Positions 1 through 36,820 of a stretch of 38,338 nucleotides of DNA are shown here, in pieces (within the stretch, counting starts at the first letter, position 1; the number at the start of each line of letters is the position of its first letter). This stretch comes from a virus. The notes beneath the pieces were generated by a model. It made no database searches and was not told the origin of the DNA. It worked only from the letters and a program-made list of their open reading frames with translations. The DNA is taken from positions 1 through 38,338 of the IMG/VR virus record IMGVR_UViG_3300044949_001953. The stretch is one strand, 5' to 3'. The translations under genes and the position numbers were made by a program.

Positions 1-2
1 TA

Positions 3-21
3 AGATGTGCTGCGCACATCT
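3..21. other. Perfect 8-bp inverted repeat (hairpin)
   Basis: Arms AGATGTGC and GCACATCT are separated by the 3-nt loop TGC. On the plus strand a T-rich stretch (GTTGTTTT) follows, so it could act as a weak rightward terminator. The window edge prevents judging the other side. Confidence 0.5.
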
Positions 22-105
22 GTTGTTTTCGCTATCGCTCAACAACAGTTTATTTGAAACACAAGAGCGAAGCGATTTAATACTCATCTAGATTAATCGG
101 TCACA

Positions 106-126
106 CTTTGCCCGCACAGGGCAAAG
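106..126. other. Perfect 8-bp inverted repeat (hairpin)
   Basis: Arms CTTTGCCC and GGGCAAAG flank the 5-nt loop GCACA. No T-tract follows on either strand, so it is not a standard intrinsic terminator. It is more likely part of a structured RNA or a processing signal. Confidence 0.5.
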
Positions 127-220
127 AATGTTCTCATCTGAGTGGCACAGTCACTAGCATTGGGGTGTTTTGCAGAGGCGGTTGTCCGATACCTCCATCC
201 CCGTTCTTATCACAACGGCG

Positions 221-254
221 TTTATACTCCCAAATGCTAGCTTGGGCGTATAAA
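221..254. other. Long imperfect hairpin
   Basis: TTTATAC plus CCCAA pairs with TTGGG plus GTATAAA across one T/C mismatch. The loop is ATGCTAGC, itself containing the palindrome GCTAGC. It ends only two bases before the terminator-like hairpin at 257-280. Confidence 0.5.
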
Positions 255-256
255 GT

Positions 257-280
257 GTAGCATCGCTGCTACGTCTTTTT
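257..280 (+). terminator. Candidate intrinsic terminator (rightward)
   Basis: A 6-bp stem (GTAGCA / TGCTAC) with the tetraloop TCGC is followed by GTC and five T's at 276-280, the classical rho-independent layout for plus-strand transcription. The stem is short. No rightward gene lies between the window edge and this site, so if real it would end transcription of something to the left or of a non-coding RNA in this segment. Confidence 0.35.
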
Positions 281-435
281 AGCTCTACGAATTCTGTTCA
301 AACAATCAAATGGCGGCATTTGCCATCGTCGTCCTGTCAAGGATAGTGATTGAGTGCTCGCTAGCGCGGCGAGGCTTCCACTCCCTGTGATCCGAGATCC
401 AGGTCTAGGGCACACGATGTTGGCTTGTGCTGGCC

Positions 436-870
436 TTAACTGCTTAATTTGTCTTTGATATGACTACCATGAACACGCACCTGAATGTGCCCGTTGTAGT
501 AGTCGGCTGATTCTAATACACGTCTGGAAAATTGTTCTCTTGCTTCAATATAGCTGCACTCTGATTTTGATCGACAGTAATAAAGTATTTCTCGTTGAAA
601 ATTGTCTTTGCCCAGGAGTTCTACGTCACGGGTGAGTTCGGGGCTTGAACCATAATAGTCTCGCCAGTCTGAGTCCACCTTGGTGCGAATTTTTTTCTTG
701 CGTTTGTTGCCGTTTTTGAGTTTGACTGTTTTCTGAGTTGTCTTTGAGAACTTGGCTAATTTTTTGCCTATGTATTTGCGATTGTTTGTAGTGTTGGTAA
801 TCAAGTAGACAAAGCCCACACAATCTTCTGGGAGAGTTTCCACTGGTTGATTGTTGTATAGCCATGTCAT
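436..870 (-). CDS. GIY-YIG domain protein
   Basis: A 144-aa protein with an N-terminal GIY-YIG nuclease core. The block FVYLITN (residues 20-26) stands for GIY, and KYIGKK (about 32-37) for YIG. A lysine-rich insert follows (about 45-63). Next comes the DWRDYYGSS block carrying the expected arginine, and a glutamate-bearing helix near IEAREQF. The catalytic Tyr, Tyr, Arg and Glu candidates are therefore all present. GIY-YIG enzymes are single-domain endonucleases seen in phage homing elements and in DNA repair. No DNA-binding tail typical of a homing endonuclease is evident, so the role (homing, repair or structural) is open. It is the last gene of the leftward operon, 10 bases after the radical SAM gene. 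The ATG at 870 is preceded by a close AAAGG. Confidence 0.7.
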   Translation of the reverse strand: MTWLYNNQPVETLPEDCVGFVYLITNTTNNRKYIGKKLAKFSKTTQKTVKLKNGNKRKKKIRTKVDSDWRDYYGSSPELTRDVELLGKDNFQREILYYCRSKSECSYIEAREQFSRRVLESADYYNGHIQVRVHGSHIKDKLSS

Positions 871-880
871 GTGCCTTTAC

Positions 881-1978
881 TTAGTTGGTCAGATACCCAA
901 CAGCGTAGTTTTGGTCGACTAACTCACAATTGCACTTCTGTTCACATTCAACCCAGGCCCTGCTGGGATCATCAAATGTAGAAAACAATTTTTCCCAAAT
1001 TGGATTGTTTAAAACTTGTTCTAGACTGTGTGTTTTTAAATTGAGTTGATCTCTGTATACTTGATGAAAGCTGTCTTTGAAGTCAATGGTTTTTCGATCA
1101 GTTCCTAGCGAAATATATGGAAAACTAACCCAGCTGCAAGGATGCAATACACCGTCTGCACTGACATAGATTCCACGATTTCCGATAGAACACATTGGAG
1201 TTATAAATTTGTTGTGTTGTTGCTTGATTATGTTGTATTGAGTTAAATTTTGAGATAGGTAGTCTTGATTGAGTTGTTGCTTGTTTGATAGTGGTATAAA
1301 ATGTCGTTCGTAGCGATGTGTTGAACTGATGTATTCCTTGCGCGGTTCAAGTGTGTCTTGACTCCCGCCGTATGAATCACCATACTTGCTGCCAAATTTT
1401 GTGCTGTATGTTAATTGTATACCGTCGCAACCGATATCAGTTGCCTGTTGTTTGATACTGTCAAGATGATCTTGATTGAATGAAAACACTATGGATGCCC
1501 AGTAAACATGGGCTGCGCTTTCTTGGCACATGATACGCATACCTGCCATGATAGAATCCCAATCGCTGCCTACTCGATACAGATTATTGGATTGGTTGTC
1601 GTAGCCATCCACACTGAAGTTTATAGTATCGTATTCGTTGGATAGCTTGGCAAACTCTTTCCACCACGACTCTTTTCGATAACTTCCGTTGGTAATGGTG
1701 TATACATGTATTTTTGGGTTTTGTGACTTGATGTAATCAACAATTTCCAAATACTCGCTGGCATAGATCGGATCACCAATGTCACCACACATGGTAATTC
1801 TACGCACTTGTGTTTTCAGTAGTTCAGGACTCAACACACGCTTGAAAAAATTTAAATCAAGCTCTTTGTTCATCCAGGGCACAGGTGCCGTATCATTTCT
1901 GGGACACCGCGGACATTTCAATGTGCACTTGGCGCTTACCTCAAAGTGCCAGTGATACAATTGCCAAGGAAAAGTCAT
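881..1978 (-). CDS. Radical SAM protein with C-terminal cysteine cluster
   Basis: A 365-aa protein. The cluster-binding motif CTLKCPRC gives C18, C22 and C25 in the CX3CX2C spacing of radical SAM enzymes. The CGDIGDP block (residues 64-70) sits where the SAM-binding GGE-type motif is expected. A C-terminal region resembles SPASM/twitch domains: a cysteine before an exposed GNRGIYVSADG strand, a further Cys in HPCSW, and a terminal CEQKCNC cluster that could hold auxiliary iron-sulfur centres. Such enzymes use a 5'-deoxyadenosyl radical to modify peptides, nucleic acids or sugars; the substrate cannot be read from this sequence. The start codon overlaps the stop of the upstream dehydrogenase gene (ATGA), so the two are translationally coupled. 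A second radical SAM protein is encoded in the same array. Confidence 0.8.
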   Translation of the reverse strand: MTFPWQLYHWHFEVSAKCTLKCPRCPRNDTAPVPWMNKELDLNFFKRVLSPELLKTQVRRITMCGDIGDPIYASEYLEIVDYIKSQNPKIHVYTITNGSYRKESWWKEFAKLSNEYDTINFSVDGYDNQSNNLYRVGSDWDSIMAGMRIMCQESAAHVYWASIVFSFNQDHLDSIKQQATDIGCDGIQLTYSTKFGSKYGDSYGGSQDTLEPRKEYISSTHRYERHFIPLSNKQQLNQDYLSQNLTQYNIIKQQHNKFITPMCSIGNRGIYVSADGVLHPCSWVSFPYISLGTDRKTIDFKDSFHQVYRDQLNLKTHSLEQVLNNPIWEKLFSTFDDPSRAWVECEQKCNCELVDQNYAVGYLTN

Positions 1979-6908: not shown

Positions 6909-6938
6909 AGTATATAATAGTTTTGCTCAGCAGGTCAA
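6909..6938 (-). promoter_or_regulatory. Sigma70-type promoter before gp47
   Basis: The minus strand shows TTGACC (6933-6938), an 18-base spacer and TATACT (6909-6914). Transcription would start near 6902, about 16 bases before the gp47 ATG. It occupies the largest gap inside the leftward gene array (48 bases) and overlaps the last bases of the upstream radical SAM gene. It fits an early or middle promoter read by host RNA polymerase. Confidence 0.55.
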
Positions 6939-8443
6939 GGCACTTGGCTCATGGCTTGGAATATTTCTGGATGACTTTGAGCAAAGTTTTGTGCTCTAAT
7001 AGAATCCAATTTGTTCATGTATTCCACAAAGTTTTTACCAGTGTGGGTAGGATCTTCCACTAGACCAGCAGCCAAGTCCCTCAACGATTCATAAGGAGAT
7101 TGAGCAAATTTAGACTTGACCAATCTCACTGCTGCCGGTGTCATACAATCGATGTTGAGAGATTCAGGTTGACGCAGAAACTGCCAGCCAACACCCACAT
7201 TTAACTCTTTGGCATAGTCAAACAATTCGTCGAGATACAAAATGTTTTGAATGTTCACAGTAGGGTTGAGTATTACTTCAAAACGTTCTGGTTGAATTAG
7301 CGCAACATATTTTCTAACATTGGCATCGATTGCTTCCCACACACCACCTCGTTGGATTTCGAATCTTGGACCAACATCGTCGATGCTTATTTGTATTCGA
7401 ACTTTTTGAAACTTTTGTAAAAAGTCGACGATTTTTTGATTCCACACACTGCCATTGGTATTGAACACAATAGTAATATGATTAGAATGTCCAGAATCCA
7501 CAATGTGAGTCAATGCCTCTGTGATACCTTTCATCATCAACGGTTCTCCGCCTAGTATGTGGAGAAACTCCAGATGATCCAAGCAGCCGTTGACTAGTTT
7601 TAAAATGTTGTCATACCCATTTTGAGAACGACGATTTAAGTTTATCTTGAGAGTTGATTTGTAAGTTTTTTGTTGAAGCTCTTCGACTGCAATTGCACTA
7701 CTGCTTCGTGAGTTACAAATTCTGCATTTAAAGTTGCAGATATTAGAAGGAGAAATGCTGAGAAATTGCAATTCAGGATTGTCATATAAAGTTTGATATT
7801 TCAAATCGCTAAACATGTTTGACATTATATGTCTGTGACTGGGTAATCCTTGACGTTCTTTATCCCAACAAACATCACAATCTTTGATGCGATTTCCTTG
7901 TCTAAACTGTTCTCTGATGTTTGCAATAACACCATTGGTAAATGTCTGCATTAAATTTTGGTCGGCAGGCTGAGATATATCTGACACATACTTACAGCAT
8001 GGTCTTACCGCACCGTCGATGTCTACATCGAGACTGTGAAATGGCATCACGCACCTAACATCAACAGGAACAATACTACTGTCAATGATTGTGCCAGTAT
8101 AGTTGAGCGTAACCTGCTGATGTCGCATGACCTGAGCATCAAACCCATACCTCTGGTTAGCAGACTCGAGCTTGGCGGTGATATCCCAAGGAGTGCAAAA
8201 TACAATAAACCAGTTGCTGATATTATGGTCTGAGCCTGCTTTTTGAATGTGATCTAGTAGTTTTTGACTTGGCTCTTCTGAACTGTAGAATATCAGTCTT
8301 TGATTTGGTTGATATTCTTCCTGACAATGTTGTGAAAACAGTTGGTATACTTCACTGTGTCTAGCACCAATATCGGCTAGGTTAGCAAAGCATACCAACT
8401 CATATGTTTGTTCTAGTTCTTGCCTAAGTTCGTGATCAGTCAT
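6935..8443 (-). CDS. Radical SAM/SPASM-like protein
   Basis: A 502-aa protein. The radical SAM cluster motif CNFKCRIC gives C236, C240 and C243 (CX3CX2C). It is followed by a GGEP motif in ILGGEPLMM (about residue 300) for SAM binding and an FNTNGS strand. Ahead of the core, a segment with PCCKYVSD (about 150-157) and DCDVCWDKE (about 190-198) looks like a SPASM/twitch-type auxiliary cluster placed N-terminally. The first 120 residues are not recognised. Proteins of this arrangement occur in phages and in peptide- or glycan-modifying loci; the substrate is unknown. The start overlaps the gp55-like stop by eight bases, so it is co-transcribed with the late sigma factor from the 9362-9389 promoter. 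Confidence 0.8.
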   Translation of the reverse strand: MTDHELRQELEQTYELVCFANLADIGARHSEVYQLFSQHCQEEYQPNQRLIFYSSEEPSQKLLDHIQKAGSDHNISNWFIVFCTPWDITAKLESANQRYGFDAQVMRHQQVTLNYTGTIIDSSIVPVDVRCVMPFHSLDVDIDGAVRPCCKYVSDISQPADQNLMQTFTNGVIANIREQFRQGNRIKDCDVCWDKERQGLPSHRHIMSNMFSDLKYQTLYDNPELQFLSISPSNICNFKCRICNSRSSSAIAVEELQQKTYKSTLKINLNRRSQNGYDNILKLVNGCLDHLEFLHILGGEPLMMKGITEALTHIVDSGHSNHITIVFNTNGSVWNQKIVDFLQKFQKVRIQISIDDVGPRFEIQRGGVWEAIDANVRKYVALIQPERFEVILNPTVNIQNILYLDELFDYAKELNVGVGWQFLRQPESLNIDCMTPAAVRLVKSKFAQSPYESLRDLAAGLVEDPTHTGKNFVEYMNKLDSIRAQNFAQSHPEIFQAMSQVP

Positions 8444-22621: not shown

Positions 22622-25600
22622 ATGGCGAGAGTTAGAACAGTAGAATTTTTACCTGAGATTTTTCAAACTTCTACAAACAAACAGTTTCTTTCAGCTACGC
22701 TGGATCAACTAGTTCAAGAGCCTGCCTTCACAACCATTCAAGGCTTTGTGGGACGTAGAGTAGGTCCTGGTGTAAATCCCAACGACGAATACATCAAAGA
22801 AACCACCAACGTCAGAACAAATTATCAACTTGAACCGGGTGTGATATTGAAAAAATATGACACCAATCAAGTTCAAGACGCCATCACATATCCAGGTATA
22901 ACCGATGCTGTGGGACTAGCAGGCGGGTACACCAACAACTCAGATCGTTTGTATACCAGCGATTACTACACCTGGGATCCGTTTATTGACCTAGACAAAT
23001 TTGCAAACTTCAGTCAATACTACTGGTTACCTGCTGGGCCTGATTCTGTTAATGTGTTTTCAGGGGACATTCCGCTGACTGACACATTCACTGTGACACG
23101 AGAAAACGGAGTCTATACTTTCAGCGAACAAACAGGCAATAACCCTGTGATTCGTTTGGTTCGCGGAGGAACCTATAAGTTTGACGTTGCACAAAACGCC
23201 AAAGAAACAGTAAATTTTCGTGTCAGCAGCAAAGGTATCAGTGCATTTGTAATTGATTATCAAGACAATCCCAATTTAAAACTGGTGCGAGGAAATACCT
23301 ATGTGTTCACACTGGTTAGAAATGAATACAAGTTCTTTATCAAGACAGAACCAACACTGGGAACTACCAATCAATACACTGACGGTGTAACCAACAATGG
23401 TGCCGTGACTGGAAAAATCACTTTTACTGTGCCACAAGACGCTCCGGATGTGCTGTATTACTGCAACGATTTGCAGAGAAACATGGTAGGCAACATAGAA
23501 ATTGTGGATGCTGTGCCGGGCACTGGGCCAGGATTTTGGATACAGGTTGATCCCGGTGTTGACGGGAAGTTGATTGCCACACCAAACATCAGCAGTCGAG
23601 ATGTATTGGGAGTGGTCAACAACGGTGAAGACCTTGGCACAGTGACCTTCAATGTTCCTTTGACCACAGCACAGGATTTTTACTATAATCTTGCCCCTAT
23701 AACGTTTGCCAGTGGCAAAGTAGATTTAATATGTAATTTACAGTTTGATCAACTAAACAATGTTTTTGTAGATGAATTTTTCAAACAGTTTCCATCGGGC
23801 ATTGATGGAATAACAAATCTAAATGGTCGAACTTTGGTATTCACTGAAACCAACACCGACCCCGAGGGTGGTGGCTGGGAAGCCACTACACAATATGATC
23901 CATTAATTCGAACCGCTCCGCCTTCAGTACCGGTAATTGGTGGCCCGGGATCGTATGATAGTATACTATTTGATCAAACCACTTCAATAACCGATGTTAG
24001 CGTCCAGCGCAGTGTATGGCAAGTGCAGTATGTTAATACCGAAGGCGGGGGTCAGTATATACAGTTAACAAGTGTCTATAACATAGAAAATTTGCAAAAA
24101 TTCAACATACAGTTTGGCACAACTTATTCCAGCACTCAGTGGTTCAAGAATTCAAGTTCTGAGTTTGAACAGATTCCGTTGCTGTCTGCTGTCAAATCTG
24201 TGTTGTATTATCAAGACGGAACTGATCCTGAAATTTTTGGTCGAATCGAACTGGTCGATCAAACAAATCAAGGACAGCTCAACGTCAATGAGATCATTGA
24301 CAAAAAGAACTATATTAGCCCCAACGGTGTGACATTCACCAATGGATTAAAAGTAACATTTGTAGGCGATATTGTTCCTGAAACCTACGCCAACAACAGT
24401 TACTACATCGAAGGCGTCGGCACTGCAATCAAATTGCTGCCAGTGAGCGAGTTTGTTACGCCAGAAACATACACACAAAGTGCCACAGTTCCATACGATA
24501 GCACACCTTATGATGTAGGAAACTTTGATGCAAGTTTAAATCAACCACTGGTTCCTGATTATTTGACCATAAACAGAGCAAGTCTAGACTCCAATGCCTG
24601 GTCTAGATCAAATCGTTGGTTTCACATTGACGTTATCAATGCCAGCGCAGAGTACAACAACACTGTGGCGGTGTTAGACAACAATTTTCGAGCCAAGCGA
24701 CCCATCATTGAATTCAGAGCCAACACACATCTTTACAATTTTGGAACCCAGGGTAAAGCACCAGTTGATATCATTGATTTCAATGCCACAGACGCATTGA
24801 GCACTATTAATGGCACCATTGGTTACAGTGTGGATGGATACTCTTTTATCAACGGCAGTCGAGTGATCTTCGCCGCCGACGTTGATCCTAACGTTAGAAA
24901 CAAAATTTATCAGGTTGAATTCATTGTTCCTGACACGGTGTCACCCTTGATAGCACAACCAATCATTAATCTGGTTCCAGCCAGCGACGCTACAGTTTTG
25001 TTCAATCAAACAGTGGTATGTTTGTCGGGTGCGCTTCAACAAGGCAAATCTTTTTACTTTGATGGAGTAACATGGTTTGCTGGACAACAAAAAACACAAA
25101 CTAATCAAGCACCGTTGTTTGATGTGTATGATACCGCTGGCATAAGCCTTAGCGACAGACTTAAATATCCATCCACAAACTTTGCGGGTAGTAAATTGTT
25201 TTCTTATGCAGTGGGAACAGGCACAGATGACACTGTGTTGAGATTTCCGTTGAAGTATCTTAGCCTTAGCAATGTGGGCGATATTGTATTTGAAAACAAT
25301 TTGTATACTGATTCTTTTGTGTATACCAAAGACAGCGTATCTACCACTGAAATGATCAGCACTGGCTATGTTCGTCAATATCGCACACGAACAGATTTTA
25401 TCAAAGAAATTGGTTGGCAACCTGCTGCTGACAAGAGCGTAGTGAGACAACAATTTAGTTTTGTGTATGATGGATCGCCATTGGTATTGGATGTTCCTGT
25501 TGATACCACATCTGTGTTTCCTGCGGTTCAACTATACATATCTGGAATTTTTATCGATCCAACCGATTACACACTAGCAGTTTCTGGAGATACCACAACA

Positions 25601-28600
25601 ATTACATTGAACAACATCAATCGCATTGATGGCATTGGATCAGTGATCGAAGTCGACGCACTCAGCAGCAAAGTCAGCAAGTTTGGTTTTTATCAAGTTC
25701 CGGATAACCTTGAAAACAATCCGTTGAATGGAAACAGTCAAACATTCACGCTGGGAACCATAAGATCTCATTATCAATCCATTGGTCAAAATCTTAAAAA
25801 TCTTGTTGGGCCAATCAACGGTGCCAACAACATCAGAGACCTTGGCAATGTAATTCCTTACGGACAAAATATTCTCCAACAGAGTTCGCCGATGACTCTG
25901 GCTGGTTATTTCATGCGCAGCAACGAATACAATATATTCAATGCTCTATCATACAACAGTCGCGAATATGAAAAATTCAAAGCACAATTGTTGGACACAG
26001 TAACTCGTAACGACTATACAAATTACACGATTCCCGACATGTTGACCGCAGCTATCAACGATATCAATTCGGGAAAAACTGAAGCATCGCCATTTTATTG
26101 GTCGGACATGTTGCCTGCCAGCTCGATATTCAGTCAGCGAACAAGCAAAATAACACCAATCAGCACCAATGTGTTTGATCTGTCTACTACCTATACTTTT
26201 ACCAGTTCAAACTATCAAGGCCTGCTGGTATATCTCAACAACGTGTTGTTGATGATCAACAAAGATTACACTGTATCTTCGGACGGTCCACGACTTACCA
26301 TCACTGTTCCTCTGGCTGTGGGCGACACTGTGATCATCAGAGAGTATGCTACAACATACGGTAACTATGTCCCAAATACTCCAACCAAGCTTGGACTGTA
26401 TCCTGCATTTAGACCTCGAATCTATGTGGACACCAACTATGTGACACCTCAGCTGATGATTGAGGGTCACGACGGTAGCCTTACCACTGCATTTGGCGAC
26501 TTTCGCGACGAGTTGTTGTTGGAATTTGAAACAAGAATTTTCAACAACTTAAAAATCAAAAGCATTATTCCGTTGACAGCACAAGATGTAATTCCAGGAC
26601 AGTTTAGAACCACTGATTATACACTGTCCGAAATCAATCAAATTTTGAGTGCTGACTTCTTGAGTTGGATTGGTTGGAACAAACTCAATTATCAAGAACA
26701 AGATTACAATGCCAACAATCAATTTACATGGAACTACATTTCGTCTGGCAACAAGATAACTGGCCCCAACGAAAGTCCCATGCCTGTGGGCGCCTGGCGC
26801 GGCCTGTATCGCTGGTTCTATGATACCACCAGTCCCAATACCACCCCCTGGGAAATGTTGGGCTTCAGCATAGAGCCATCGTGGTGGCAAGACGTTTACG
26901 GCGCTGCACCATATACCAGCGACAACTTGGTGTTATGGGACGATCTTGCTGCTGGTAAAGTAGCAGACCCTGCAGGCGAATATTATCTTCCGCAGTATGC
27001 TCGTCCCAAGTTAACTGAGATTATTCCCAATGGCACCGAAGGAGAATTGCTGAGCCCATTCAATTGTGTGGTTGGTTTCTACGATGCCAGTCAGTTTCAA
27101 AAGAGTTGGGTGTTTGGAGACTGCGGTCCAGTGGAATACTCTTGGACTAGAAGTTCCAGCTATCCTTTTGCTGTAATGCGTTTGCTGGCACTGACACGAC
27201 CAGCAGAATTCTTCTCGTTGTTTGCTGATCGAGATCTTTACAAATTTGACACAGACTACGACCAGTATCTTTACAACGGTCGCTATCGTCTGGACGCCAA
27301 TGGTATCCAAGTCTACGGCAACGGCACCAGCAAAGCCAGCTTCATTGACTGGATCATTGATTACAATCAACAGGCCGGTATCAACAGCAGCGACCGTCTC
27401 GCAAAAGATTTACAAAGTCTAGATGTTAGACTTTGCTACAGACTTGGCGCGTTCACAGACAAGCAATATCTTAAAATTTACACAGAAAAGTCCAGCCCCA
27501 ACAGCTTGAATTCTAGTTTGTTGCTGCCCGACGAAAGCTACAATTTATTGTTGTATAAAAACCAACCATTTGAACAAATTAACTATACCTCGGTAATTGT
27601 TCAAGTAGTCGAGGGTGGATATACAGTGTATGGATACAGTATAACAAATCCATATTTTGAAATTCTAACCAGCAAACCTTACGGAACTACCAAAACTATT
27701 TTTGCCGGCGGCGAAAGCATATCTGTTCCCAATCAATACACTGACCAAGTTGTAAAAATTCCCTATGGATATGTATTCACCAACAAGAGCGTGGTGCTTG
27801 ACTTTTTACTGAGTTACGGAGCATTGCTGTCCAGCCGCGGACTGTTGTTCACTGACAGACAAAATGGTTATGATCTAAACTGGGATCAAATGGCCCAGGA
27901 GTTTTTATACTATGCCAATCAGAATTGGGAACCAGGTTCGATAATAAACTTGAACCCGTCGGCGTTCAGTATCACTGCATTTCGAGATCAAGCCATCATA
28001 GACAGTATTGTGGCGCAGACCCCGGAAAACAATATCCTTGATCAAAATAGAACTACTGTGTCTGTGCGTGACCTGGTCGTTGATCGATTTGAGAATATTT
28101 TTAAAATTTCTTCGCTGACCGAACAAACCATCAGCTATCTCAATCTCAAGTTCACCTCTTACGAAAGCTTGGTTGTATTAGACAATGTCAGTGTGTTCAA
28201 CGACTTGATTTACGACCCAGTGACAGGTGCAAGACAGAGTAGAGTCAATGTTACCGCGGTGATAAATTCTGACTGGAACGGACAGTTAGATGCACAAGGA
28301 TTCATCTACAACAATGATGCAACAGTTGAAAACTGGAGTCCCGATAAAAAATATGCCAAGGGCGAAATTGTTATCTACAAAAACAACTATTGGTCTGCAC
28401 AAACCATTGTTCAGCCCAAGATTGAATTTGATTATGGCGATTGGGTCAAGAGCGACTATACAAAGATTCAACGGGGCCTGCTGCAAAACTTGCCCAATTT
28501 CAGCAACCAGCTGGCCAACAGTTATAGCATAAACGATGCAAACCTTGAAACAGACCAGGATTTAGTGGCCTATGGACTGATCGGATTCAGACCAAGACAA

Positions 28601-31600
28601 TACATGTCTGCTTTGAATCTTAATGACATTAGTCAGGTCAATGTATATCAACAGTTCCTCAAGGACAAAGGAACCATCAGATCCGTTCAATTAATCGGCA
28701 ATGCTAAAACCAACAAAGAAGTTGCCGAATACGATCTCTACGAAAATTGGGCTATTCTTCAGGGCACCTATGGCGCAAATGCCAACAAGAGTTTTGTTGA
28801 ACTAAGACTCAACGAAGCTGATTTGAACGCAGATCCTGCCACAGTGCAAATTGTAAATGTAGGTGAAGTCAGTGAAGCCGATCAACAGATTTTATACACC
28901 AACTTTTGGCGTCAAAGCTACAAAATTACCAGTCCCGATGTGTTCCCAACAACCACAACATCAATTCAAGATGCTGCGTTGCCCACTGCTGGTTATGTGA
29001 GTCTGGACGATGTTGATATTACTGTGTTTTCATTGGATGCCAGATTGGGATTTGCACCAGGTGTGTTAGACACTGTGGGCATTGGAACAACCATTTGGTC
29101 AGCCAAAGTCAATGCCTACGACTGGGGTGTATTTCGTTGTCAGGGTGTGCCTGGCAATGTGCAACTAATAACTACCAATCTAAACAGCACCAGTGTGGTG
29201 CAATTCAGTCAGAAACACGGCCTGGTCACAGGCAACGTTATCATAATTAGAAACTTTGATGACGCAGTTGATGGAGTGTATAGAATATTGGCAACTCCAA
29301 CGGCCAACACAGCAGTAATTCAATTGTCAGTGACCAGAGACATTGTTGGACAAGGAGTAGCAGTGGTGCTACGCACCATGCGAGTATCGCAGGCCAGCGA
29401 TGTAATCAATCTCAGTTATGCCAACGAATTAACAGCAGGTGCTCGAGCCTGGGTTGACAACAATGGTGCAGGACTGTGGACTGTTTTAGAAAAACAAACA
29501 CCGTTTACACAAATACAGTCAAAAAATATTCCGCAAGGAACTCCCGTATATCAAAGCCAACTTGGCTACAGTGTTGCTCAGGGCACCAATAATATTATTG
29601 CTGTTGCAGGCGCACCTGGATACAGAATTTCTGACAATGCTCCAGCCATTGGTGCTGTATATTCATATATCAAAGATGTTGAAAATCAATACGCCGAAAA
29701 CGCTTTCTTGAATTTGGGAACCACAGGAACGTTGGGATATGGCAATGCTGTGGACATAGGCAATCAAAGTTGGATTGCTGCAGGTGCCAGCGCATCAAAT
29801 TCCAACATGGGATATGCTGCTGCAATATTCAGAGCCGAAGACAGTAATGCATTTGAACAACGTCAATTGCTGGTGGCACCCGACCAAGATTTTGGAACTG
29901 GTGAATTTGGATACTCTGTGTCTGTCAGCAAAGACGAACGTTGGATGTTTGTTGGAGCTCCTGGAAACAACAAAGTTTATGCTTTTGCACGACAAGATGT
30001 AGAGCTTCAACAAATTCGTTATACCACAGACGGCATAAACAAAATTTATCCCTATAATCAATCTATAGAAATTGATCCAGCACAGCCTGAGCAACTCAGT
30101 GTGGTCTACAACAACAAATTGTTGAGCTATCCCACAGATTACACTGTTAATGCAACCAGTGTGATATTGGTAAACTTGCCCCCAGAAGGACAGTCAATAT
30201 TCATACAGAGAAAGCAGGCTCAACTGCTAGATTCTACAACATTCTATGAAGTTGTTCAAAACAGCACATCGGGGTCTGGTGTAGGGGCTAAGTTTACAGT
30301 AACCAACACCCGTGGTCAATATTTTGCTTCAGTGACAACTGCTGGCACAGGTTATGCAATCGGTAACACTGTTACCATCAACGGCAACTTGTTGGCCAAC
30401 GACAATTCTTTACCAACCAGTCCCACTGCGCCGGCCAACAACTTGGTTATCACAATCACAGATATCGACGGCTCGGGCGGAATTGAAGATTTTACCATCA
30501 GCGGAAGTGGTATTTCCAACAACTACATATTCCCGGTTGATCCTTATCTTTACACTGTTGAAAACATTTGGAATATTTCTGTTTCTGTGGATGGCATTCT
30601 GCAACGACCATTTATTGATTACGACTTTCAAAACGACAGTGCTTTTGCCAACGACATTGTGTTTAACACCATACCAGCAGCTGGTGCAAGCATTGTTGTC
30701 AGCGCCAAAACACAATTCGAATACATTGATACATTGGAAGTTGCTGCACCCGGAGGAAGATTTGGTTCCAGCATTGCACAAACAGACAATGCTCGAATGA
30801 TTGTAATTGGTGCCAAGCTTGCTGACTCTGGAACAGGTAGCTACAGCGGAATGACCTATGCGTTTGATCGAGGCGTGATCAAATATATCATCAGTAGCAC
30901 CTCACAGAACACATTTACGTTACCAGTTGGATTTGCCGAACCTGTTGCTGTAACTGTAAACGGTCAATACCTTACAAATTCAGCTGAATTTATTAACGGT
31001 CAATTCAGCGTGTCTGGGTCGGTTGTGACTGTTGATGTTTCATTGAATATCGGCGACGTTGTAGAAATTGAAAACAACATTTTCACATTGACTCAATCAA
31101 TAGAGGCTCAAAATCCATTTGATCAAGCAGAGTTTGGTGCTACACTGGATATCTGTCCAACCAATTGCAGTTTGTATATTGGTTCTCCCAACGACGGATC
31201 AGTTCAGACACAGGTTGGTTCAGTTCAGCGCATGATAAACCAGTCAAGATTGTTTGGCGTAATCACGTCTCTCAATGCAAACCCTGTTCTCACAGCTGGA
31301 GACAACATTCGAATCAACAATCAGTTGGTGGCTGTTCCAGCAGTTCCCAACAACACTGTGCAGGGACTGAGCAGTGCTATCAATCAATCAGGCATACCCA
31401 ATGTTGTTTCTTCTGTGGTCAATGGGCTCTTGACAGTTAATATTATTGATCTTGAGGCTGCCACTGAGTTTGATAAACTGTCAGTTCTGCCTGGCACAGT
31501 AGGATCTGCGTTTGAAGATCTAGGGTTTGATGTGTATGCCTATGCTCAGACCATCACAAGTCCATACCCAACAGAGGGTGCCAAGTTTGGATCTTCTTTG

Positions 31601-34600
31601 TCAGTATCGTCAGACTCTACAACATTGATTGTTGGTGCACCTGGGGCCGATCTTGTTGAACCCACAACGTTCGACGCCGGCACCACATATTTTGATGATC
31701 GAAGCACAACCTTTTCAAACTTTGAAAATAATTCGGGTGTGGTATACTCATATGACTTCCTGCCCAGCGCAGAATCTTCTGTCAGCAATCCAGGCAAGTT
31801 CGTGTTTGGTCAACAAATCTATGACAACAGTGTTGCACCACTGGATCAATGGGGCAGCTCTGTTAGCTATGTGAGTGGTAGACTGTTGGTTGGATCACCA
31901 GGCAGTGACCTGGGCGACAGTGCAGTAAACTTTGGTCGTGTGGCGGTGTTTGAAAATACAACAAATAGACCAGCTTGGTATCCCATACATGTGCAAGTTC
32001 CGGTTGCTGATTCAAGACTGTTTAACAGTGTGTTCATGTATAACCAGCTACAGTCTAGCAAAACATACTTCTTTGACTTTATAAACCCTTTGCAGGGCAA
32101 AATTTTGGGATCAGCTCGACAAAACATTGATTTTATTGGGTCTGATGATCCAGCAAGATACAATGCTGGACCAATCAACAACAAAGGAAACTTCTGGGCC
32201 AATGACAGAGTTGGTGAAATCTGGTGGGATATCAGCAGTGTGCGTTTTATTGATCCATTGCAAAATGATATAACATACATCAGTCGACGATGGGCACAAA
32301 CTTTCCCTGGAAGTCGCGTAGACATTTATCAGTGGACAGAAAGCTCGGTCCCCCCGGCACAATACACCGGACCTGGCACTCCCAAAGACACTGTCAGCTA
32401 CACAGTGAGAGCAGTGCTGAATCAACAAGGCGTTTTTGAAACCAGGTATTACTACTGGATAACCGGAATTGATACCATCAACACTAATGCTGGAAAAACT
32501 CTCAGCACAGTTGGAATTGCAAGATACATTGAAAACCCCAGAAGCTCGGGTATTCCTTACATTGCTCCTATTGATGCCAGCACTGTTGCAATCTACAACG
32601 GTTTAGAGTATCTAAGTGCATCGGACACTGTGATTCATATCGGCTACGACCGAGAATTCAACGATGACAACATTCACACCGAATATGAATTGATCGCTCA
32701 AGACAAGCCTGACAGTTTCTTGAGTGCAAATTTGTACCGCAAGCTACAAGACAGTTTCTGCGGAGTAAACACCACAGGTGCTGCTGTTCCTGATGTGTCA
32801 TTGAGTATTGCTGAACGCTATGGTGTGCAGTATCGTCCTCGACAGAGCATGTTCGTCGACAGATTTATTGCGTTGGAAAATTATCTAACCTACGCTAATT
32901 CTATTTTGTTGACATTGCCTATATCAGAGAGTCGCACATTTATCTTATTGAACAGTGCTGAGCCAGAACCCACTGCTGCCAGCGGCGAGTGGAATATGAG
33001 ATTGGCAAATATACAAGAGCTTGGGTATCAAGATCTCAACGAAGTTCCTTTGGGATATCGATATTTGGTTGCTACCGACAGCACCAACGATGGTCTTTGG
33101 AGCATCTACCAAGTTCTACAGACAACCGAAGTTCTTGGTGGGCAAAGATACACACAGCTATCAAGAGTTCAAAACTATGACACTCGTAAGTATTGGAATT
33201 ATGTCAATTGGTATGCGGTTGGATACAACAGCAGCATAGTTCCCTTGTTTGAAGTTTCTAACTATGCTGCATTGGCCACAGTGGAATTTTCAACCCCGGT
33301 GGGTGGCAGTGTCAAAGTCACTGCCAATGCTCAGGGCAAATTTGAAATATATCAAAGAACTATTTTGGGTTGGGACAGAGTGGGACTAGAAGACGGAACT
33401 ATTCAGTTCAAAGAAGAGTTGTGGGACTACAGTCTGGGAAGATTTGGATTTGACGTTGAAGTATTTGATGCACAGTATTTTGATGCTGAGCCAGTGATTG
33501 AAACTAGAAAAATCGTTCAAGCCATCAACGAAGAACTGTTCATTGACGATTTGGCAATTTACAGAAACCGTGCATTGATTTTGATGTTCAACTTTATTTT
33601 AAGCGAGCTTCAGGCACCAGAATGGTTGATGAAAACCAGCTTGATCGATGTGAATCATAAAATTCGTGAACTGCTGCCATTCCAGATTTTCCGTCAGGAT
33701 AATCAAGACTTTGTGTTGGATTATATTCAAGAAGTCAAACCTTATCACGTTCAAATTCGAGAATTTAATCTAGCATACAATGGTCAAGATCAATATGGTG
33801 GCGATTTGACCGACTTTGATTCTCCGACATATTACAATAGATTGCTGGATATTCCTCAATATGTCAACCCTGTATTACTGCCATACGCAAAGAGCTCTGC
33901 TGTGGGCACAGGAACTCCTAATAGCATTGCTGACACACCTGCAGATGCAGAAATTTGGACCCAATGGCCTTGGAGCAACTGGTTTAACAATTATCTACTC
34001 AGCGTAGAAGAGGTCAGTATTATTGATGGTGGCGAGGGATACACAGAACCACCGATTGTCACAGTTACCGGTGATGCCTTGGTTCCTGCTGTGTTAGCAG
34101 CAGTGATCAACAGTGCAGGAAAAGTAGTTGCTATTGATGTAATTGACCCAGGATCTGGTTATTCAACCACAGCAGTGATTACCATCGAACAAGGCAACGG
34201 TGTAGGGGCCAGAGCCTATGCAGTGATGGGCAATTCGCTGGTTCGATCAATTCGAACCACAATCAAATACGACAGATTTGAATATAATTCAGATATTGTC
34301 GACTGGACTGCGGGAACTCAGTATACGCAAGGAACCCAGGTCAGATACAACAACCGAGTGTGGAGTGCAGACAGCACTGTTCAGAGCACAGAGTTTGATC
34401 CTGAGCAATGGACATTGGTTCCTGCTTCTACACTCAGTGGTGTAAACAGAACCATGGGATTCTATACACCCACTGTGAATGAGCCAGGACTACAGTTGCC
34501 ATTGTTGGTTGATGGTGTAGAGTATCCTGGAGTTCAGGTTGCTGGTGTAGGCTTCAACCAAGACACTGGTTTTGATGTTGGAAATTTTGATATCAATCCC

Positions 34601-36820
34601 TATGACAACATCAGCTTTGGACCCGAAGGACGCCCCACATACGATCCTGCCATCTTGGATGCAATCTACGAAAGCCCATATCTAGATCCTTTCTTGGGCA
34701 CAAGACCTACTGATATTAATGTAGACGGTGGTGCATACATAGACACTTATTCTAGTTTTGCACCTGAAGAATTGGTTCCTGGATCAGAATTTGATACTTT
34801 GGATTTTCGTGTATACACTCGCCCGGGGTCAGATTGGGCATTCAACGGGCACGGATTTAAGAGTTACAGTCTCGGCGTTGACATAGGAAGTTTGCCTTAT
34901 GTCTATGACTTCTCAGTATGGTTTGATCAAGTGCCTTATTTGGTAACAGGTTTGTTGTCAAACCAAACCACTGGCATTGAACTTGTCGAAGGAGTCAATT
35001 ACACCACTGACTGGAACGCCAAAACGTTCACAATTACATCGGGCTGCAACGTTGGCGACACAGTGATTGGCATTGCCTACGGGGTGGGTGGTGGTAATCA
35101 GTTGTATCGACAGAATTATGCCGGTAACCAAATTGTCAACAATCAGATCACTGTGCCTGTGCTGTATGCACAGATACAAGAAGTTGATGCATGGGTCAAT
35201 GGTGTGCCTTACACTGGTGTAAGTTATGTTGCCAGTGGTAGCAACACAGTGGTATCATTTAATGATACATTTACTATCAACGACTATGTGGTTGTTTATG
35301 TGCTTGGACCAACCACAATTGATTCTACCCTGGTGAACTACAGCTGGAGCTCCCCGGTTACTCAAAATATCATTGGCGACGGATCTACCACGCTATTTGA
35401 ACTCGACAACAGCCTTGAATACACAAATCCTGCCAACTTAATTGTGTTGGCCAATGGCCGACGTTTAAGAACTGCTGCAGGTGTTGAATACTATGCCGAC
35501 GGCAGTTCAGCATATCTGCTGCCAGATCGCTTGGGATTCAGTCAAGCCCTGATTGCCGACAACGAAGTTCTTGTCTATATCAATGACATTCCTCAGATCT
35601 TGGGGGTTGATTTCACAGTGGAACCTTACACTGGAGATCATCGACATGTTGTGTTCGCTTCTATCCCAGCCGCCGGCGAAAGAATTCTGATATCTGTGAC
35701 CACTAATACACAAGCCAAAGTTACCGGAGGTCAATATCTGTTTATAGATACCAGTCAAGGATATGTACCAATTCTGGGAGATGTAATTCAAGTCATCACC
35801 TGGAATGATACTCGTCAGCAGAATATTCTTACCAGTGTGTATGTTGGCCCAGTTTCTTCGGGAACAGTGGTCAGTGAGGGATACGATGACACTGATTTTG
35901 ATGCTGCTACAGTACCCAACACACCCGGAAGTTTTGATTATACTGTGGGAATAACAGTTGAAAACAACAATCTATTCTTGACTCGACCAACTTTTACCCC
36001 GGACAAATTATGGGTAACACTGAATGGTCAGCGTTTGTTCTACGGAGAGAATTTTACTATTGTCAACGACGAAATTATACTTTCCATAGGCACACTACAA
36101 CCCAATGATGTTGTAATCATAACTGAGTTTACCAACAGTGTTGTTCCGGAAGCCATGGCGTTCCGTATTTTCCAAGACATGAGAGGAGTGCAGGCCACCT
36201 ACAGAATTACAGAAAACTCTACTACTGTGTTGACACAACAACTTGACAGTTACGACGACGTGATTTATGTAACCGATGTTTCTAAATTAGACGAACCCGA
36301 TATTAATAAAAATATTTGGGGAGTTCTGACTGTCAATGGTGAGAGAATCATGTATCGTAACAGAGACGTTGTCAATAACACAGTGAGCAGTCTACGCCGG
36401 GGAACAGCTGGCACAGCAGTTGCGGAGCACTCTCCAGGATCATATGTCTATGCTCTGGGCCGCGGAGAAATTTTACCTGCTGAATTTCAAGACTATATCG
36501 ACAGCAATTATTTCACCGCCAACGGAACAACCGTCAATTTTGAAGCTACCAATATTGTGTTTGACGACAGCGACAGCGCATTGGAAACTGAAGCAGTTGA
36601 AGTATATGTGGGCGGAACCAGAGTCACAGAAGGCTACACATTGACCAGTAGTTCGCCAGTTACAGTGTTGTTTAATGTTGCACCAACTGCTGGACTGGGG
36701 ATTACAATTTTGGTAAGACGTGGTGTCACTTGGTATGCTCCGGGCGCAGGAACACCCAGCGATGGTGTCGCGCTACAAGATACCGAAACTCAGGCTGCAA
36801 GGTTCTTGAGGGGTATGTAA
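22622..36820 (+). CDS. Giant multidomain virion structural protein (gp7 position)
   Basis: One uninterrupted 4732-aa frame. Residues 1-145 (LPEIFQTSTNKQFLSATLDQ, VGRRVGPG, YQLEPGV) look like the start of very large marine T4-like baseplate proteins; it occupies the gp7 slot after gp6. Other parts: cupredoxin-like beta domains (155-345), seven FG-GAP motifs (2314-3113), two CBM5/12-like modules (1905-1944, 3895-3934), a conserved-looking block PEWLMKTSLIDVNHKIREL plus EVKPYHVQIREFNL (3666-3720), GxGY repeats (3795-3880), at least ten copies of a strand-turn-strand VNG...DYT module, five of them in the last 650 residues, and a VNGERIMYRNRD...SLRRGTAGT unit (4567-4600). No signal peptide is seen. 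The ATG has GGAG nine bases upstream. It is probably a baseplate wedge or peripheral fibre/adhesin component; T4 gp7 is only 1032 aa. Confidence 0.75.
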   Translation: MARVRTVEFLPEIFQTSTNKQFLSATLDQLVQEPAFTTIQGFVGRRVGPGVNPNDEYIKETTNVRTNYQLEPGVILKKYDTNQVQDAITYPGITDAVGLAGGYTNNSDRLYTSDYYTWDPFIDLDKFANFSQYYWLPAGPDSVNVFSGDIPLTDTFTVTRENGVYTFSEQTGNNPVIRLVRGGTYKFDVAQNAKETVNFRVSSKGISAFVIDYQDNPNLKLVRGNTYVFTLVRNEYKFFIKTEPTLGTTNQYTDGVTNNGAVTGKITFTVPQDAPDVLYYCNDLQRNMVGNIEIVDAVPGTGPGFWIQVDPGVDGKLIATPNISSRDVLGVVNNGEDLGTVTFNVPLTTAQDFYYNLAPITFASGKVDLICNLQFDQLNNVFVDEFFKQFPSGIDGITNLNGRTLVFTETNTDPEGGGWEATTQYDPLIRTAPPSVPVIGGPGSYDSILFDQTTSITDVSVQRSVWQVQYVNTEGGGQYIQLTSVYNIENLQKFNIQFGTTYSSTQWFKNSSSEFEQIPLLSAVKSVLYYQDGTDPEIFGRIELVDQTNQGQLNVNEIIDKKNYISPNGVTFTNGLKVTFVGDIVPETYANNSYYIEGVGTAIKLLPVSEFVTPETYTQSATVPYDSTPYDVGNFDASLNQPLVPDYLTINRASLDSNAWSRSNRWFHIDVINASAEYNNTVAVLDNNFRAKRPIIEFRANTHLYNFGTQGKAPVDIIDFNATDALSTINGTIGYSVDGYSFINGSRVIFAADVDPNVRNKIYQVEFIVPDTVSPLIAQPIINLVPASDATVLFNQTVVCLSGALQQGKSFYFDGVTWFAGQQKTQTNQAPLFDVYDTAGISLSDRLKYPSTNFAGSKLFSYAVGTGTDDTVLRFPLKYLSLSNVGDIVFENNLYTDSFVYTKDSVSTTEMISTGYVRQYRTRTDFIKEIGWQPAADKSVVRQQFSFVYDGSPLVLDVPVDTTSVFPAVQLYISGIFIDPTDYTLAVSGDTTTITLNNINRIDGIGSVIEVDALSSKVSKFGFYQVPDNLENNPLNGNSQTFTLGTIRSHYQSIGQNLKNLVGPINGANNIRDLGNVIPYGQNILQQSSPMTLAGYFMRSNEYNIFNALSYNSREYEKFKAQLLDTVTRNDYTNYTIPDMLTAAINDINSGKTEASPFYWSDMLPASSIFSQRTSKITPISTNVFDLSTTYTFTSSNYQGLLVYLNNVLLMINKDYTVSSDGPRLTITVPLAVGDTVIIREYATTYGNYVPNTPTKLGLYPAFRPRIYVDTNYVTPQLMIEGHDGSLTTAFGDFRDELLLEFETRIFNNLKIKSIIPLTAQDVIPGQFRTTDYTLSEINQILSADFLSWIGWNKLNYQEQDYNANNQFTWNYISSGNKITGPNESPMPVGAWRGLYRWFYDTTSPNTTPWEMLGFSIEPSWWQDVYGAAPYTSDNLVLWDDLAAGKVADPAGEYYLPQYARPKLTEIIPNGTEGELLSPFNCVVGFYDASQFQKSWVFGDCGPVEYSWTRSSSYPFAVMRLLALTRPAEFFSLFADRDLYKFDTDYDQYLYNGRYRLDANGIQVYGNGTSKASFIDWIIDYNQQAGINSSDRLAKDLQSLDVRLCYRLGAFTDKQYLKIYTEKSSPNSLNSSLLLPDESYNLLLYKNQPFEQINYTSVIVQVVEGGYTVYGYSITNPYFEILTSKPYGTTKTIFAGGESISVPNQYTDQVVKIPYGYVFTNKSVVLDFLLSYGALLSSRGLLFTDRQNGYDLNWDQMAQEFLYYANQNWEPGSIINLNPSAFSITAFRDQAIIDSIVAQTPENNILDQNRTTVSVRDLVVDRFENIFKISSLTEQTISYLNLKFTSYESLVVLDNVSVFNDLIYDPVTGARQSRVNVTAVINSDWNGQLDAQGFIYNNDATVENWSPDKKYAKGEIVIYKNNYWSAQTIVQPKIEFDYGDWVKSDYTKIQRGLLQNLPNFSNQLANSYSINDANLETDQDLVAYGLIGFRPRQYMSALNLNDISQVNVYQQFLKDKGTIRSVQLIGNAKTNKEVAEYDLYENWAILQGTYGANANKSFVELRLNEADLNADPATVQIVNVGEVSEADQQILYTNFWRQSYKITSPDVFPTTTTSIQDAALPTAGYVSLDDVDITVFSLDARLGFAPGVLDTVGIGTTIWSAKVNAYDWGVFRCQGVPGNVQLITTNLNSTSVVQFSQKHGLVTGNVIIIRNFDDAVDGVYRILATPTANTAVIQLSVTRDIVGQGVAVVLRTMRVSQASDVINLSYANELTAGARAWVDNNGAGLWTVLEKQTPFTQIQSKNIPQGTPVYQSQLGYSVAQGTNNIIAVAGAPGYRISDNAPAIGAVYSYIKDVENQYAENAFLNLGTTGTLGYGNAVDIGNQSWIAAGASASNSNMGYAAAIFRAEDSNAFEQRQLLVAPDQDFGTGEFGYSVSVSKDERWMFVGAPGNNKVYAFARQDVELQQIRYTTDGINKIYPYNQSIEIDPAQPEQLSVVYNNKLLSYPTDYTVNATSVILVNLPPEGQSIFIQRKQAQLLDSTTFYEVVQNSTSGSGVGAKFTVTNTRGQYFASVTTAGTGYAIGNTVTINGNLLANDNSLPTSPTAPANNLVITITDIDGSGGIEDFTISGSGISNNYIFPVDPYLYTVENIWNISVSVDGILQRPFIDYDFQNDSAFANDIVFNTIPAAGASIVVSAKTQFEYIDTLEVAAPGGRFGSSIAQTDNARMIVIGAKLADSGTGSYSGMTYAFDRGVIKYIISSTSQNTFTLPVGFAEPVAVTVNGQYLTNSAEFINGQFSVSGSVVTVDVSLNIGDVVEIENNIFTLTQSIEAQNPFDQAEFGATLDICPTNCSLYIGSPNDGSVQTQVGSVQRMINQSRLFGVITSLNANPVLTAGDNIRINNQLVAVPAVPNNTVQGLSSAINQSGIPNVVSSVVNGLLTVNIIDLEAATEFDKLSVLPGTVGSAFEDLGFDVYAYAQTITSPYPTEGAKFGSSLSVSSDSTTLIVGAPGADLVEPTTFDAGTTYFDDRSTTFSNFENNSGVVYSYDFLPSAESSVSNPGKFVFGQQIYDNSVAPLDQWGSSVSYVSGRLLVGSPGSDLGDSAVNFGRVAVFENTTNRPAWYPIHVQVPVADSRLFNSVFMYNQLQSSKTYFFDFINPLQGKILGSARQNIDFIGSDDPARYNAGPINNKGNFWANDRVGEIWWDISSVRFIDPLQNDITYISRRWAQTFPGSRVDIYQWTESSVPPAQYTGPGTPKDTVSYTVRAVLNQQGVFETRYYYWITGIDTINTNAGKTLSTVGIARYIENPRSSGIPYIAPIDASTVAIYNGLEYLSASDTVIHIGYDREFNDDNIHTEYELIAQDKPDSFLSANLYRKLQDSFCGVNTTGAAVPDVSLSIAERYGVQYRPRQSMFVDRFIALENYLTYANSILLTLPISESRTFILLNSAEPEPTAASGEWNMRLANIQELGYQDLNEVPLGYRYLVATDSTNDGLWSIYQVLQTTEVLGGQRYTQLSRVQNYDTRKYWNYVNWYAVGYNSSIVPLFEVSNYAALATVEFSTPVGGSVKVTANAQGKFEIYQRTILGWDRVGLEDGTIQFKEELWDYSLGRFGFDVEVFDAQYFDAEPVIETRKIVQAINEELFIDDLAIYRNRALILMFNFILSELQAPEWLMKTSLIDVNHKIRELLPFQIFRQDNQDFVLDYIQEVKPYHVQIREFNLAYNGQDQYGGDLTDFDSPTYYNRLLDIPQYVNPVLLPYAKSSAVGTGTPNSIADTPADAEIWTQWPWSNWFNNYLLSVEEVSIIDGGEGYTEPPIVTVTGDALVPAVLAAVINSAGKVVAIDVIDPGSGYSTTAVITIEQGNGVGARAYAVMGNSLVRSIRTTIKYDRFEYNSDIVDWTAGTQYTQGTQVRYNNRVWSADSTVQSTEFDPEQWTLVPASTLSGVNRTMGFYTPTVNEPGLQLPLLVDGVEYPGVQVAGVGFNQDTGFDVGNFDINPYDNISFGPEGRPTYDPAILDAIYESPYLDPFLGTRPTDINVDGGAYIDTYSSFAPEELVPGSEFDTLDFRVYTRPGSDWAFNGHGFKSYSLGVDIGSLPYVYDFSVWFDQVPYLVTGLLSNQTTGIELVEGVNYTTDWNAKTFTITSGCNVGDTVIGIAYGVGGGNQLYRQNYAGNQIVNNQITVPVLYAQIQEVDAWVNGVPYTGVSYVASGSNTVVSFNDTFTINDYVVVYVLGPTTIDSTLVNYSWSSPVTQNIIGDGSTTLFELDNSLEYTNPANLIVLANGRRLRTAAGVEYYADGSSAYLLPDRLGFSQALIADNEVLVYINDIPQILGVDFTVEPYTGDHRHVVFASIPAAGERILISVTTNTQAKVTGGQYLFIDTSQGYVPILGDVIQVITWNDTRQQNILTSVYVGPVSSGTVVSEGYDDTDFDAATVPNTPGSFDYTVGITVENNNLFLTRPTFTPDKLWVTLNGQRLFYGENFTIVNDEIILSIGTLQPNDVVIITEFTNSVVPEAMAFRIFQDMRGVQATYRITENSTTVLTQQLDSYDDVIYVTDVSKLDEPDINKNIWGVLTVNGERIMYRNRDVVNNTVSSLRRGTAGTAVAEHSPGSYVYALGRGEILPAEFQDYIDSNYFTANGTTVNFEATNIVFDDSDSALETEAVEVYVGGTRVTEGYTLTSSSPVTVLFNVAPTAGLGITILVRRGVTWYAPGAGTPSDGVALQDTETQAARFLRGM
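29561..31960 (+). repeat. Seven FG-GAP (integrin-type propeller) motifs inside the giant gene
   Basis: The protein pattern aromatic-G-x-S/A-(V/I/L) followed by a strand and (V/I)GAPG, IGSP or VGSPG occurs seven times, starting at residues 2314, 2373, 2429, 2714, 2838, 2989 and 3077. Seven is the blade number of integrin-alpha propellers. The first three are close together (about 57 residues apart). The later blades are separated by inserted modules of 86-258 residues. Confidence 0.65.

Follow-up and report, generated by a model that had tools for sequence, protein, structure and literature searches.

The hairpin-rich stretch at the left end of an uncultured viral contig is one folded RNA of about 430 bases, read from the minus strand, which is shared in two main forms by more than two hundred uncultured viral contigs. 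Only the first third of the form described here had been catalogued before, as the Rfam family RF01718 (Polynucleobacter-1). The sequence analysed, hereafter called the window, is the whole stretch of 38,338 bases of the IMG/VR record IMGVR_UViG_3300044949_001953, and the RNA runs within it from position 435 (5′ end) to about position 3 (3′ end), both ends being uncertain by about 10 nt. The RNA is best read as a stand-alone “ornate” phage RNA acting in trans, comparable to GOLLD and ROOL but without a match to their models; this role is inferred from sequence alone and is held with a probability of roughly 0.55.

An earlier note on the sequence had described positions 1-435 as a noncoding region with eight or more inverted repeats, several of them with perfect 8-bp arms, a hairpin followed by a T-tract, and two mutually exclusive pairings (21-47 versus 30-74). 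This observation is confirmed, and the element proved larger than had been described. Ten inverted pairs are found in 1-600, and eight of them lie wholly inside 1-435, including perfect 8-nt arms at 3-10/14-21, 20-27/41-48, and 106-113/119-126. The region folds better than dinucleotide shuffles on both strands (z −3.74 on the plus strand and −2.53 on the minus strand). Five terminator-like sites occur against a mean of 0.9 in shuffles of 1-900, and four of them are on the plus strand; the T-tract hairpin (255-274, followed by CTTTTT) is one of these, whereas the RNA is on the minus strand. The two exclusive pairings exist in the window. However, over 66 aligned relatives a run of five or more complementary bases is found at the place of the 20-48 helix in 59, whereas a run of seven or more is found at the place of the competing 30-74 pairing in only 8. 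Although the two tests use different stretches and cut-offs, an intrinsic switch does not look conserved.

The interpretation given in that note, namely, a phage small RNA, a terminator cluster, or a replication-linked element, is supported only in part. A phage RNA is right in kind, but the element is one large RNA on the minus strand and not a set of small hairpins. A terminator cluster does not explain 102 mostly covarying pairs and four pseudoknots, and in 31 relatives inspected by eye no long T-tract follows the last hairpin. Nothing found supports a replication element, although none of the analyses addressed it directly. Three outcomes that had been named beforehand as refuting the observation were not encountered: covariation is strong over the whole stretch, no ORF of 60 aa or more overlaps 1-435, and there is no tRNA in the window. 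Short ORFs of 51-125 aa, of varying length and place, do overlap the 3′ part of the RNA on the opposite strand in many relatives, whereas no ORF on the strand of the RNA recurs there.

The first identification was provided by a covariance-model search. Positions 435-300 of the minus strand match RF01718 over its full model (1-141 of 141) at 118 bits against a gathering cut-off of 37. A pattern scan of viral contigs returned at least 119 stretches, on contigs of up to 355 kb. One of them (L018; stretches and loci are designated here by L and records by G) is a chance match in a coding region and was dropped, and the other 118 match the RNA profile. In 56 nonredundant loci the sequence stays conserved for about 300 nt beyond the Rfam part, up to a terminal hairpin, and the profile matches the window from 435 to 5. 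As the pattern scans were limited in the number of rows returned, the sample is biased, and as the window stops about two bases after the RNA, its 3′ flank is not seen there.

Mutual-information analysis of 106 unique full-length sequences (mean identity 0.62) shows helices over the whole length, several of them crossing. These were written as a structure of 102 pairs, which was counted on a separate MAFFT alignment of 66 sequences, each below 85% identity to the others in the first alignment. Standard pairs are formed in 91.6% of cells, against 76.4% after shuffling and 36-39% after sliding. Changes on both sides are seen in 77 of the 102 pairs, against 57.7 in shuffled and at most 45 in slid controls, and cells with double changes number 982, against 294 and at most 203, respectively. 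No shuffle of 500 reached any of the five values counted. Since the structure was read from largely the same sequences, the slid control leans in its favor, and the number of double changes is the stronger argument. Folding energy alone favored the plus strand; however, the Rfam match and the excess of G-U over A-C cells (439 to 139) fix the strand as minus.

The 5′ domain (300-435) begins with PK1, in which 433-435 pairs with 422-424 inside the loop of P1 (410-414/426-430), an H-type pseudoknot within 422-435 which is not drawn in the Rfam structure line. It is followed by P2 with its closing pairs P2a (378-409; 408-409/378-379 and 396-403/384-392), by the P3 hairpin (356-375), and by P4 (347-352/303-308), which encloses P5 (330-346) and P6 (310-326). 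In PK2 the P6 loop (315-317) pairs with 282-284; 83% of cells are paired, and the window itself forms two of the three pairs. P7 (257-272) is the T-tract hairpin mentioned above seen from the other strand. P8 (221-254) is a long hairpin whose lower part is among the weakest elements (79% of cells, against 95% for its other helix), and its loop (235-240) kisses 154-159 in PK3. In the pseudoknotted core (162-215), P9 (212-215/182-185) crosses P10 (198-202/162-166), of which the window forms four of five pairs; the core also contains P11 (192-195/175-178) and holds the conserved GGTA..GG.C.ACCGCC. The four supported crossings are, thus, PK1, PK2, PK3, and P9 across P10. P12 (136-139/90-93) hardly varies and is therefore weak evidence. 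P13 is a hairpin at 106-126 (CTTTGCCC/GGGCAAAG), P15 (42-47/21-26) is supported by only 62% of cells in a loose alignment, and the terminal hairpin P16 (4-20) often carries a c(GYA)g triloop.

A large pseudoknotted RNA beside a homing-type GIY-YIG gene, with many invariant columns, also recalls a self-processing ribozyme or an intron remnant, as group I introns have such neighbors. This reading is very doubtful. No Rfam intron or ribozyme model was matched up to E 10 in window 1-900 or up to E 1 in nine other loci, and by inspection of gene clusters the flanking genes do not look like halves of one gene.

The RNA is phage-borne, and all copies come from uncultured viral contigs. With the Rfam model, 49 of 50 searched records, of up to 355 kb, have exactly one match each, two of them cut by a contig end, the 50th record being that of L018. 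Low-stringency blastn of 50,697 isolate phage records found no convincing copy: the SegE-plus-RNA sequence of the window gave eight records with short matches of at most 58 nt and E 0.02 or worse, whereas one RNA of this form (type A) and one of a second form (type B, described below) gave none at E 0.1. One type A query gave none in 72,556 plasmids. Two strict patterns of the type A 5′ domain found no true copy in GTDB genome contigs; the first returned none, and the second returned 16 stretches, none with an RF01718 or profile match. The family was tabled in 2010 under “Burkholderiales, fresh water/estuary” and as probably cis-regulatory, without a phage named in that row (PMC2864571). One carrier phage of 342 kb (record G032; L352:15923-16365 and L351:18874-19125, L352:5694-12737) holds 28 tRNA genes and a permuted, betaproteobacterial-type tmRNA with the tag ANDSQFALAA, so that a betaproteobacterial host is likely for it. 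In the open-access literature, apart from subscription papers and preprints, searches for the family returned nothing or only the 2010 paper, and searches joining GIY-YIG with structured or guide RNA gave papers whose listings do not describe this element, although an existing description cannot be excluded.

Directly 5′ of the RNA lies an ORF of 144 aa (436-870, minus strand), whose stop codon abuts the RNA. It contains a SegE-type GIY-YIG domain (PF19835, 7.3e-35, residues 3-129 of 144) and matches phrog_447 (1.1e-39), a family often annotated as “NAD synthetase” in public phage records, whereas Pfam calls it SegE GIY-YIG. It is preceded in the same direction by radical-SAM, SDR-like, and SbcC genes. 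Radical-SAM genes lie at 881-1978, beside SegE, and farther upstream at 6935-8443 (both minus strand), and the genes between SbcC and SegE vary from phage to phage. Elsewhere in the window, a single ORF of 4732 aa (22622-36820, plus strand) fills more than a third of the sequence.

Of the 118 loci found by the pattern, 12 are cut too short upstream; of the other 106, 100 have SegE on the same strand within 2.5 kb upstream. SegE is the nearest upstream ORF in 120 and the second in 7 of 137 oriented loci, other genes lying in between in these 7, and the nearest upstream gene, on the same strand, ends mostly −6 to 30 nt and up to 50 nt from the RNA. Starting instead from SegE, 69 of 71 loci with enough 3′ flank have the RNA (8 more are too short), and the two without it, L184 and L188, run straight into a gene. 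SegE homologues in isolates, matched in 494 records and at most 52% identical, have no such RNA in the 10 regions read. SbcC relatives lie within five upstream ORFs in 98 of 137 loci. The nearest downstream ORF of 70 aa or more, mechanically chosen, is convergent in 76, in the same direction in 52, and missing in 9 of 137 loci, and a 5′-leader role is therefore not general.

The association with SegE is strong but not strict. In L047 a 172-aa ORF 10 nt before the RNA, a PDDEXK endonuclease (PF24608, 3e-28; phrog_244, RusA-like), takes the place of SegE, and by clustering the same applies to L093, L118, and L110. L083 has a 172-aa ORF of unassigned family there. In L014, and in L094 with the same RNA, no SegE lies beside the RNA and the flanking genes are others, though a different GIY-YIG ORF, homing-endonuclease-like, lies about 4 kb upstream in L014. 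In L046 a second ORF of 243 aa (phrog_314 homing endonuclease, 9e-15; no Pfam match at 0.05) lies between SegE and the RNA, and its C-terminus ends HGSHIRNKI like SegE, as if it had invaded the SegE 3′ end.

A moving cassette was also considered. SegE and RNA of L123 and the window share 96.7% identity, with unrelated sequence from 2 nt before the SegE start codon, and several other pairs break near the same place. However, synteny with SbcC relatives and the single copy per searched record speak for a resident element whose neighbors change, and true empty sites were not found.

The position of the RNA also allows a cis-acting 3′ element of the SbcC-SegE gene run, which would stabilize or end the mRNA, block read-through into the convergent operon, or let SegE control its own message. 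Its strand, its short distance to the upstream gene, its stable terminal hairpin, and the frequent convergent ORF agree with this view. Nevertheless, it appears unlikely, as far more structure is conserved than termination or stability needs, the upstream gene changes, in L014 no ORF of 60 aa or more on the strand of the RNA ends within 370 nt upstream, and no SegE residue clearly tracks the variable letters of the repeats described below. A sigma-70 promoter scan gave nothing beyond chance. The T4 late promoter word TATAAATA is absent from the window, but it lies right after the terminal hairpin in L011, L033, L046, and L103.

Many SegE loci carry an RNA whose 3′ domain matches the profile but whose 5′ domain does not. 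A scan for a motif of this type B gave at least 120 viral stretches, 119 of them with a profile match to the 3′ domain, and SegE lies upstream in 96 of 101 testable loci (18 are too short; some contigs are shared with the SegE search). Type B has its own covarying helices (47 unique sequences) and no Rfam match in the loci scanned. In type A the loop of P8 contacts a strand after the core (PK3), whereas in type B another hairpin loop covaries with the corresponding strand (columns 266-271 with 478-484), as if the contact were kept while the module changed. A third type (L134 and others) was also seen.

The strangest feature is a pair of repeats, A-CTC-RGAURAN-G and A-TCT-RGAURAN-A, which lie 59-60 alignment columns apart (50 nt in the window). 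In the window, copy 1 (133-142) reads CTC-AGATGAG and copy 2 (83-92) reads TCT-AGATGAG, and P12 partly overlaps them. The variable letters +3, +7, and +9 agree between copies in 130, 132, and 132 of 132 unique RNAs (111 of type A and 21 others). The fixed letters were part of the search pattern, which 168 of 192 regions matched, and carry no weight; the count leaves out the 24 other regions. In the unfiltered alignment of 106 type A sequences the agreement is 105, 106, and 106, and in type B alone it is 46 of 47 and 47 of 47 for the first two letters. On a tree built without these columns (FastTree, midpoint root), the joint changes number at least 18, 7, and 10. The letters in front differ between the copies in all 66 sequences of the alignment (CTC against TCT), which speaks against simple gene conversion. 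Equal letters, free to change together, are what a common partner of both copies would impose, or an exchange in which one copy must stand in for the other.

No such partner was found inside the RNA, near the loci, in three large genomes, or in SegE, and the repeats are unexplained. The 7-mer and its complement are not enriched near the loci (forward 77 against 93 expected, complement 58 against 52), no third alignment column explains the letters, and there is no other site for a 10-letter complement in three large genomes. SegE columns reach at most 6 SD with the repeat letters, while other RNA-SegE column pairs reach about 10 SD. RNAalifold pairs RGAU of copy 1 with AUCU of copy 2, which does not require equal letters; A in copy 1 with G in copy 2, the fully Watson-Crick choice there, is seen in 0 of 106 sequences.

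The proximity of a small nuclease gene suggests, as a further possibility, a guide or scaffold RNA in an OMEGA-like system, in which an enzyme with little beyond the catalytic domain would borrow targeting from the RNA. The precedent is the orphan RAGATH-18 RNA, which lies downstream of IS607 TnpB and proved to be its guide RNA (PMC11061315). As in that system, a structured RNA lies directly 3′ of a small nuclease gene; however, the nuclease is of the GIY-YIG kind instead of a RuvC or HNH nuclease of the TnpB/IscB kind, no guide was recognized, and one resident copy at a syntenic site is seen per searched record. In two of three large genomes the RNA has no more matches elsewhere in its own genome than control RNAs; in the third (G009) one 16-nt match exceeds its two control RNAs, though it falls inside the conserved 5′ stem region, and targets may lie elsewhere. 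As RNA and nuclease also occur apart, this explanation is considered improbable. Equally speculative is a new class of phage RNA machine, in which a conserved catalytic or scaffolding 3′ body with interchangeable 5′ domains would carry a duplicated, drifting but mutually identical 7-10-nt tag, addressing one common nucleic-acid or protein partner, and would work with the adjacent minimal nuclease as a double-tagged RNA-directed endonuclease.

The closest known RNAs are GOLLD and ROOL (PMC12286853), which are also large, phage-encoded, of unknown function, and rich in pseudoknots. As described for GOLLD, a conserved 3′ region occurs under a variable 5′ region. However, there is no Rfam match to either up to E 10, so the RNA is not a member, and it is shorter. 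GOLLD and ROOL often lie near tRNA islands; in G032, the one tRNA-rich genome looked at, the tRNAs are at 118.9-132.7 kb and the RNA is at 214.4 kb, about 80 kb away. With respect to Polynucleobacter-1, the RNA is about three times longer than the family and phage-borne, and in most loci that have a next gene it is convergent to it (76 of 128).

The analysis itself establishes one continuous, pseudoknotted, modular RNA of about 430 nt on the minus strand, present in one copy per searched phage record, usually at the 3′ end of an SbcC-to-SegE gene run and often facing a convergent operon. The remainder is inference, made without transcript evidence of any kind. In this view, the RNA is transcribed with that gene run, or from a promoter near it, during infection and acts in trans, alone or with protein. 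It would fold into a compact body whose 3′ domain (the crossed helices P9/P10, the loop contact PK3, and the terminal hairpin) is the working part, while 5′ domains are exchangeable, and its two RGAURAN tags would be read by one common partner, a dimeric protein or a repeated nucleic-acid site, since they match each other. SegE is more likely a neighbor that settled beside a conserved sequence than an obligatory partner. Conversely, SegE sits next to nearly all copies, which a mere neighbor need not do; L014, the best stand-alone case, has the other GIY-YIG ORF upstream; and a cis-acting role is not excluded.

An orphan Rfam entry thus turns out to be the first third of an elaborate phage RNA, which is present in more than two hundred uncultured viral contigs and was not found by blastn in the isolate records searched. 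Large phage RNAs of unknown function, such as GOLLD and ROOL, are an open question, and a further, modular class with many sequences, a mapped fold, and a known gene neighborhood makes that question testable by comparison. The identity-locked repeats are, in addition, an unusual kind of constraint.
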